Origin: a bacterium
GTDB lineage: Bacteria > Zixibacteria > MSB-5A5 > WJJR01
Reading direction: 5' to 3'
Assembly (NCBI GenBank): GCA_035559435.1
Contig: DATMBC010000031.1
Coordinates: 1-57,619 of the forward strand
Length of the DNA: 57,619 bases
In this document: positions 13,107 through 45,729 of the stretch, one piece after another
Layout: the number at the start of each line of letters is the position of its first letter
Position numbering within the stretch: the stretch's first letter is position 1
Program-made: the position numbers and the translations under genes
Notes under the pieces: generated by a model
Database searches by the model: none
Seen by the model: only the letters and a program-made list of their open reading frames with translations
Told to the model about the DNA's origin: nothing

Positions 13107-13188
13107 GCGAACGTGGCGGAACTGGCAGACGCGCTGGACTTAGGATCCAGTGGGGCAACCCGTGGGGGTTCAACTCCCCCCGTTCGCA
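13107..13188 (+). tRNA. tRNA-Leu (UAG)
   Basis: An 82-nt class II tRNA: acceptor GCGAACG/CGTTCGC, D-arm TGGCGGAACTGGCAGACGC, anticodon stem CTGGA/TCCAG with loop CTTAGGA (anticodon TAG, read UAG), a short variable arm, T-loop TTCAACT and discriminator A. CCA is not encoded, unlike the tRNA-Met at 1600. It sits 26 nt upstream of the selenoprotein gene at 13214. Confidence 0.94.
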
Positions 13189-13213: not shown

Positions 13214-13450
13214 ATGAAGCAGGTCATCGTTTACACCCAGCCCGACTGAATGCCGTGCGAATGGACGGAAGAGTTTCTTTCGCGCAACGGCATTCCGTAT
13301 ACCCGCAAGGATGTGCGCGCCGATCCCGCGGCGCGCGCTGAGTTGATCGGTCTGGGCTTTCGCTCGACCCCGGTCACGCTCATTGACGGCGTTCCGGTGG
13401 TCGGATTCGAGCAGGATCGCCTGATCGAGTTGCTCACTCCCAACGAATAG
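13214..13450 (+). CDS. Glutaredoxin-like selenoprotein (Sec-x-x-Cys), in-frame TGA
   Basis: Reading from ATG 13214 gives MKQVIVYTQPD, then TGA (13247-13249), then MPCEWTEEFLSRNGIPYTRKDV and on to a stop at 13450: 78 residues with the TGA as Sec12. This is a complete glutaredoxin/NrdH-like thioredoxin fold: first strand, Sec12-M-P-Cys15 where relatives have Cys-x-x-Cys, the STPVT cis-Pro strand, and the GFEQDRLIELL helix. Without readthrough the protein loses its first strand and redox residue. A hairpin starts right after the TGA, as bacterial SECIS elements do, and selD is present 8 kb away. The alternative is a point mutation to a pseudogene, but replacement of exactly the nucleophilic Cys makes Sec far more likely. 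Confidence 0.85.
13250..13293 (+). promoter_or_regulatory. Putative bacterial SECIS hairpin for the glutaredoxin-like selenoprotein
   Basis: Directly after TGA 13247-13249, ATGCCGTGCG (13250-13259) pairs with CGCAACGGCAT (13283-13293), ten base pairs with one bulged A. The enclosed segment can form a further short GAAG/TTTC helix closing an AGTTTC loop. Position and length suit a SelB-binding SECIS element. Confidence 0.6.
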
Positions 13451-44967: not shown

Positions 44968-45729
44968 ATGGCAACCAAACGAAACCTGAGATCGAAGCGG
45001 GAGTCGGCCGCGGATCCGACATTCGATGTCCTGTCGTTCGGCGCACATCCCGATGACGTTGAAGTGGGCACCGGCGGGGTGCTGATCCGCCTGCGCGAGC
45101 GCGGCCACCGGGTGGGCATCGTGTATCTGACCGAGGGGGAGATGGGCACCGGCGGCACCCGCGCCATCCGCAAGCGCGAAGCGGAGGCGGCGGCCCGCAT
45201 CATGGGCGTGGAGATCGTCAAACGCTTCAATTGGGGTGATACGAAGTTGTTCGACTCGTACGACAAGCGGGTGGCGGTCGCCAGACTGATTCGTCGCTGC
45301 AAGCCGCGCATCATCTTCGCGCCGCATTGGGATGGGTTCACCGGACGGCGTCAGTCGCATCCGGACCACCTGGCCACCGGGCGCATCGTCATGAACGCCG
45401 CCAATCTCGCCGCTCTGATCAAATTGGGCGGCGAAGGCACCGCCCACCGTACCGGGGCGATCTACCACTACTTTCTGCCGTCGGGCGTCAATCCGTCGTT
45501 TGTGGTCGACATCACGCCGCAGTTTGTGCGCTGGATGCAGGCGTTGTCGGCGCACCGCTCGCAATTCCTCAATCCGAAGAAATCGCGGGATTACCTCTGG
45601 TCGCTGGAGACCATGGCGCGGGCCAACGGCGCGCGTATCGGCGTCAAGTACGGCCAGGGATTCCTCTCGGCCGAGCCGCTACGGATCGATGATCCGATGA
45701 CGCTGGTGCAGGGCGACCAGGTGATTTAG
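44968..45729 (+). CDS. bshB1: LmbE-type deacetylase, probable bacillithiol enzyme BshB1
   Basis: A 253-residue PIG-L/LmbE zinc deacetylase. Zinc and catalytic residues: GAHPDDVEVGTGG (H27, D29, D30) and the later QSHPDHLATG. YLTEGEMGTGGTRAIRKREAEAAARIMGVE and FNWGDTKLFDS match BshB1, which removes acetyl from GlcNAc-malate in bacillithiol synthesis. A bacilliredoxin gene at 53635 supports bacillithiol use. bshA and bshC are not in the window, so the exact substrate is inferred. Confidence 0.85.
   Translation: MATKRNLRSKRESAADPTFDVLSFGAHPDDVEVGTGGVLIRLRERGHRVGIVYLTEGEMGTGGTRAIRKREAEAAARIMGVEIVKRFNWGDTKLFDSYDKRVAVARLIRRCKPRIIFAPHWDGFTGRRQSHPDHLATGRIVMNAANLAALIKLGGEGTAHRTGAIYHYFLPSGVNPSFVVDITPQFVRWMQALSAHRSQFLNPKKSRDYLWSLETMARANGARIGVKYGQGFLSAEPLRIDDPMTLVQGDQVI

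Follow-up and report, generated by a model that had tools for sequence, protein, structure and literature searches.

Results

A glutaredoxin gene with TGA at the nucleophile codon

The DNA analysed here (57,619 nucleotides, hereafter the window) is the entire contig C31 of a 2,998,610-base draft genome from the Zixibacteria, G000. On its forward strand, positions 13214-13450 read, with TGA translated as selenocysteine (U), as a glutaredoxin-like protein of 78 amino acids, MKQVIVYTQPDUMPCEW...TPNE, in a frame that contains a single TGA (codon 12, 13247-13249) and ends on TAG. Pfam Glutaredoxin (PF00462) matched residues 4-60 with 44.1 bits (cut-off 22.9). The TGA replaces the first Cys of the C-x-x-C motif (U12-M-P-C15), which is the nucleophile position. 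This replacement and the otherwise open frame had both been proposed in the original prediction, and are borne out by the translation and the PF00462 match. So is its warning that gene calling would drop the active site: the mechanical open reading frame starts at ATG 13250 and runs to 13450, giving 66 amino acids without the nucleophile, which still match PF00462 from profile position 12. A tRNA-Leu gene (anticodon tag; 13107-13188, forward strand), detected by Rfam and ARAGORN, lies 25 nt upstream.

The TGA codon is shared by most homologues

A wide scan of named genomes returned 322 stretches, 95 relatives among them, of which 80 homologous loci were kept. The nucleophile codon was TGA in 71 of these loci, from many phyla, and a Cys codon in the other nine (TGC in 5, TGT in 4). 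The exchange between Cys and TGA at codon 12, which the original prediction had proposed to look for by alignment, is thus present among the homologues. The peptide patterns used in the scan leave the TGA codon uncovered; as one of them selects E-F-L-S, the search design itself accounts for part of the amino-acid conservation at that place but has no bearing on codon choice. The 80-locus counts do not represent independent events: three loci (L071, L072 and L074) served as the seeds of the scan, and one proteobacterial group accounts for a large share of the list.

In a search of 146 genomes, G000 included (E 1e-6), glutaredoxin matches were found in 7, G000 included. Among the other six, TGA occupied the same codon in G015 and in G028, G110 and G030, three genomes of the same class as G000, and Cys was found in G129 and G068. 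In these last two genes (L020, L021), the nucleophile is Cys and the end reads GG, G or S, TGA, two codons and TAA, which looks like a C-terminal Sec-x-x-stop. No match was detected in the 8 nearest genomes (G001-G008), either by the E 1e-6 search or by an alignment-based one, and the nearest homologue by identity belongs to Methylomirabilota. Horizontal transfer of the gene is only a suggestion from this distribution; a tree of 31 of the 81 rows at hand did not resolve the placement of the window's glutaredoxin.

A hairpin downstream of the TGA accompanies TGA, not Cys

Downstream of the TGA, the forward strand can form a hairpin with a 6 bp stem (13266-13282) and an AGUUU loop at 13272-13276. 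Its six stem pairs were kept in 72, 72, 72, 70, 70 and 68 of the 72 TGA rows (71 loci and the window), versus 7, 9, 0, 2, 0 and 3 of the 9 Cys rows. The Leu codon at U+10 was CTT in 72/72 TGA rows versus 0/9 Cys rows. Two Cys loci, L093 and L094, offer a natural control: they keep the K-E-F-L-S residues, with CTG for Leu, which indicates that the choice of the Leu codon tracks the TGA and not the protein.

Covariation was scored for 17 TGA rows out of the 72, picked by closeness to the window. The score was 0.348, compared to a shuffle mean of 0.146, and none of 500 shuffles reached it. On these 17 rows, 99.0% of the pairing cells were paired, and slid versions of the stem gave at most 69.6% pairing and a score of at most 0.099. 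The outer pair was C-G in 7 rows, A-U in 5, U-A in 4 and of another kind in 1. Two measures on the same rows were less favourable: the number of pairs changed on both sides (2) was equalled by 33/500 shuffles, and that of further pair types (6) by 318/500.

The original prediction had placed a 10-bp hairpin right after the TGA. A lower stem does exist here: in this sequence an extended stem is predicted at 13249-13294, inverted repeat I3 (13245-13256 against 13287-13298) is 92% paired, and the fold of 13247-13294 has an energy of -19.7 kcal/mol, equalled by 1 of 200 shuffles (z -3.10, or -2.91, by stretch chosen). What relatives share, as counted over its six pairs, is instead the inner hairpin at 13266-13282. 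A figure legend in PMC1088965 gives a conserved apical-loop guanosine as a feature of bacterial SECIS elements, and the AGUUU loop has a G. Covarying in TGA rows and missing in Cys rows, the hairpin is identified on these comparative grounds as a predicted bacterial SECIS element, and the gene hence as encoding a selenocysteine-containing glutaredoxin.

These data also bear on whether the locus holds a truncated glutaredoxin starting at ATG 13250, or a pseudogene. Standard gene calling does give the shorter frame, but a TGA found in 71 of 80 loci, a covarying hairpin and a single clean frame make this reading highly improbable. A pseudogene or frameshift was rejected since the TGA is conserved among homologues, and the decay that other stops or frameshifts in close relatives would have revealed is contradicted by the homologue alignment.

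Relation to known glutaredoxins

The selenoprotein reading had been put forward as new. Its core stands, with Sec at the nucleophile and a SECIS-like hairpin; the novelty does not, at the level of the family. Sec-glutaredoxin with a UxxC motif (Geobacter, Sargasso Sea) is a listed family, one member of which has been characterised (PMC13188914, PMC7642778); PMC1088965 lists it with 10 sequences, and a glutaredoxin selenoprotein of Geobacter sulfurreducens is listed in PMC1794560. The gene in the window shares the PF00462 domain, the UxxC motif and Sec with this family, a likeness drawn from published descriptions; it is a further member of an already described family.

The best match of solved structure was PDB 7c10, ‘Glutaredoxin’ (phmmer E 1.1e-15, residues 2-74), which we take to be the selenoprotein glutaredoxin-1 of Clostridium oremlandii (cGrx1), as 7c12 and 7c13 probably are. 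cGrx1 is described in PMC7642778 as a small glutaredoxin with a U(or C)PxC active site and native Sec, proposed to reduce MsrA. The two proteins are alike as small glutaredoxins with a Sec active site, but the window's has UMPC in a YTQPDU context where cGrx1 has UPxC, and belongs to another phylum. Bacillus-type Cys homologues (L078, L080, L082, L085 and L089) align over the full length, with the same YTQP-x-C-PPC region, and PDB 3zij/3zit aligns alike; they differ by Cys in place of Sec and by having no hairpin. Likeness to three further families stayed below threshold for the whole protein: NrdH (TIGR02194, 58.2 bits, cut-off 85.75), the YruB family (TIGR02196, 62.3 bits, cut-off 88.55) and UXX-star (NF041212, 39.2 bits, cut-off 66); the gene here has no C-terminal Sec.

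By analogy with the family, the protein would be a small thiol-disulfide oxidoreductase whose nucleophile is Sec12 and whose resolving residue is Cys15. Also in the window are genes for a BshB1 deacetylase (above its cut-off) and for a PF06491 protein, so that bacillithiol may be the thiol partner of the glutaredoxin.

Gene neighbourhoods

Neighbours were listed for 12 of the 80 homologous loci, and ten neighbour proteins from four loci were checked with Pfam. At L070, L071 and L074, the glutaredoxin gene lies near a MerR-type regulator and a pyridine-nucleotide disulfide oxidoreductase, HMA or MerT domain protein, hinting at a link with metal stress; the window copy differs in following a tRNA-Leu gene instead.

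Two loci of Methylomirabilota contain, directly downstream of the Sec-glutaredoxin gene, a DCC1-like (PF04134) frame that holds two TGA codons, in YDGDUGLU (L064:8078-8446 and L065:8304-8669). The L065 copy had no NCBIfam match, the hairpin after the TGA was not unusually stable (z 0.94), and a literature search for the DCC family as selenoproteins and thiol-disulfide oxidoreductases yielded no paper. These genes are possibly an undescribed double-Sec family. Separately, in a Caldilineae genome (L073), the glutaredoxin is followed shortly downstream by another glutaredoxin-like frame that contains TGA (YTQPTUGDC).

Two other TGA-containing genes in the genome

The selD gene, which the original prediction had recognized in the window, is indeed encoded on the minus strand (22768-21704; TIGR00476, 317 bits, cut-off 125) and has its own in-frame TGA (22708-22706, GGUAGK). 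It itself ends in TGA, on which ground a general reassignment of this codon was rejected. A TGA-containing SelD was found in all 11 genomes searched, G007 having an additional SelD match over cut-off without TGA, and GGTCCGGTGGACC after the selD TGA recurs in most relatives read. Between SelD of G000 and that of three relatives, dN was 0.245-0.317 and dS 0.95-1.47; among the three relatives, the values were 0.239-0.321 and 1.04-1.60. There is thus no sign in these rates of relaxed selection on SelD, bearing in mind that a very recent loss would stay invisible.

The PF00578 search also identified a peroxiredoxin-like gene with TGA in U-P-F-C (G000:C70:60216-60674, i.e. L218:1501-1959), the only TGA carrier among 11 PF00578 matches in G000. 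The hairpins after the TGA of selD (z -0.35) and of the peroxiredoxin-like gene (z -1.33) are unremarkable by energy, and therefore should not be over-read.

The selenocysteine machinery is missing from the draft assembly

The G000 assembly comprises 106 contigs, with an estimated completeness of 100% and 0.75% contamination. No match to selA (TIGR00474) was found in it, and nothing over cut-off for selB (TIGR00475): of the two best selB hits, C97 (181 bits) reads by eye as EF-Tu and C34 as IF-2, and four further hits were below cut-off. For tRNA-Sec (RF01852), nothing exceeded the cut-off among the 150 of 528 candidates scored, and the eight candidate tRNA loci examined with ARAGORN were Leu, Cys, Gly, Ser, Arg and Pro tRNAs, with no SeC. 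A genome without selB and selC is what the original prediction had named as evidence against itself, and the draft is literally in this state, with selA missing too. SelA, SelB and tRNA-Sec would normally accompany a Sec-glutaredoxin; their absence bears on decoding in the draft, not on homology.

The same searches succeeded in relatives. Of the 146 genomes, 121 had selA above the cut-off, as did 7 of the 8 nearest ones, G003 being the exception. ARAGORN found tRNA-SeC in 7 of 8 selA regions (the 7 nearest genomes with selA, and G028), and all 7 tRNA-Sec tested passed the Rfam gathering score (66.9-70.7 bits). A long ORF starting with GTAGHVDHGKS, SelB by eye, adjoins selA where the contig reaches (the G006 contig ends in selA), and selC, selA and selB form one cluster in 7 relatives. 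The searches are therefore effective in this clade, and the genes are truly missing from the draft.

We examined where the cluster should lie. DNA of the same-genus cluster region matched G000, short repeats aside, only by its glutamine-synthetase, slipin and NfeD side (names by eye), at C65:64288-67880. Contig C65 has 87,086 bases; the 19.9 kb read there are free of N, and the sequence continues into a block found in G001 on another contig, C35. A simple contig break is thus not what lies at this site. By this comparison, G000 is rearranged relative to G001 at the sel-cluster site. Compared with the same-genus genome, the junction falls at G000:C65:64066-64288, where the sel cluster usually lies. 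Sequence past the break in G001 C35 matches G000:C47; this other side of the rearrangement was considered as a place for the machinery and rejected, with nothing of the cluster nearby. A location beside the BshB1 gene of the window (44968-45729) was likewise rejected: that gene shares only 36-40% identity with the one that relatives have next to selC, and it is not followed by any sel gene. A true deletion and a move of the cluster to an unbinned contig are both possible.

The lineage might accordingly have lost selC-selA-selB very recently, leaving the glutaredoxin, SelD and peroxiredoxin-like genes orphaned but undecayed, with UGA 13247 now a stop. That all three machinery genes are missing together, and that the NfeD-side neighbours of the cluster adjoin different genes within one uninterrupted contig, so that a rearrangement did occur, speaks for such a loss. 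Against it, the three TGA genes are intact, each with a hairpin after its TGA, and SelD is unrelaxed. Moreover G003, a genome of the same family (530 contigs, 88% complete), has a TGA-containing SelD and no selA over cut-off, suggesting that draft genomes can miss the cluster. We regard the loss as unlikely, while giving it some weight.

The missing genes could also point to a way of decoding UGA that involves no recognisable SelA, SelB or tRNA-Sec, given three UGA genes that look intact. Same-genus relatives have an ordinary selA and tRNA-Sec, however, and no positive trace of another route was seen, so that this explanation appears the least plausible of all, below even a truncated gene.

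Discussion

A TGA at 71 of 80 nucleophile codons with Cys in the rest, a hairpin restricted to TGA rows, and two more genes with TGA at redox sites lead us to read the locus, with good confidence, as a real selenoprotein gene whose nucleophile is the Sec encoded by UGA 13247; the machinery would most likely be absent from the draft assembly and not from the living cell.

In bacterial Sec insertion, SelB and the SECIS element act together. Here, SelB and Sec-tRNA would be recruited by the hairpin just downstream of UGA 13247. In the product, the Sec12 selenolate would react with a disulfide or an oxidised substrate, the selenenylsulfide would be resolved by Cys15, and the enzyme would be recycled by a reductase or a low-molecular-weight thiol. 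PMC1794560 sets out what SelA and SelD do.

The stop codon was read correctly from the raw sequence alone, at a gene that annotation pipelines would shorten, removing its active site. A literature search on selenocysteine in Zixibacteria turned up only work on deltaproteobacteria; the present genes add candidate Sec proteins from Zixibacteria. For the organism, selA, selB and selC missing from a draft rated 100% complete are no proof that it lacks selenocysteine, or else they offer a rare view of a recent loss. If selCAB was indeed recently lost by rearrangement, this genome would be a natural snapshot of a selenocysteine trait dying, with at least three intact selenoprotein genes.
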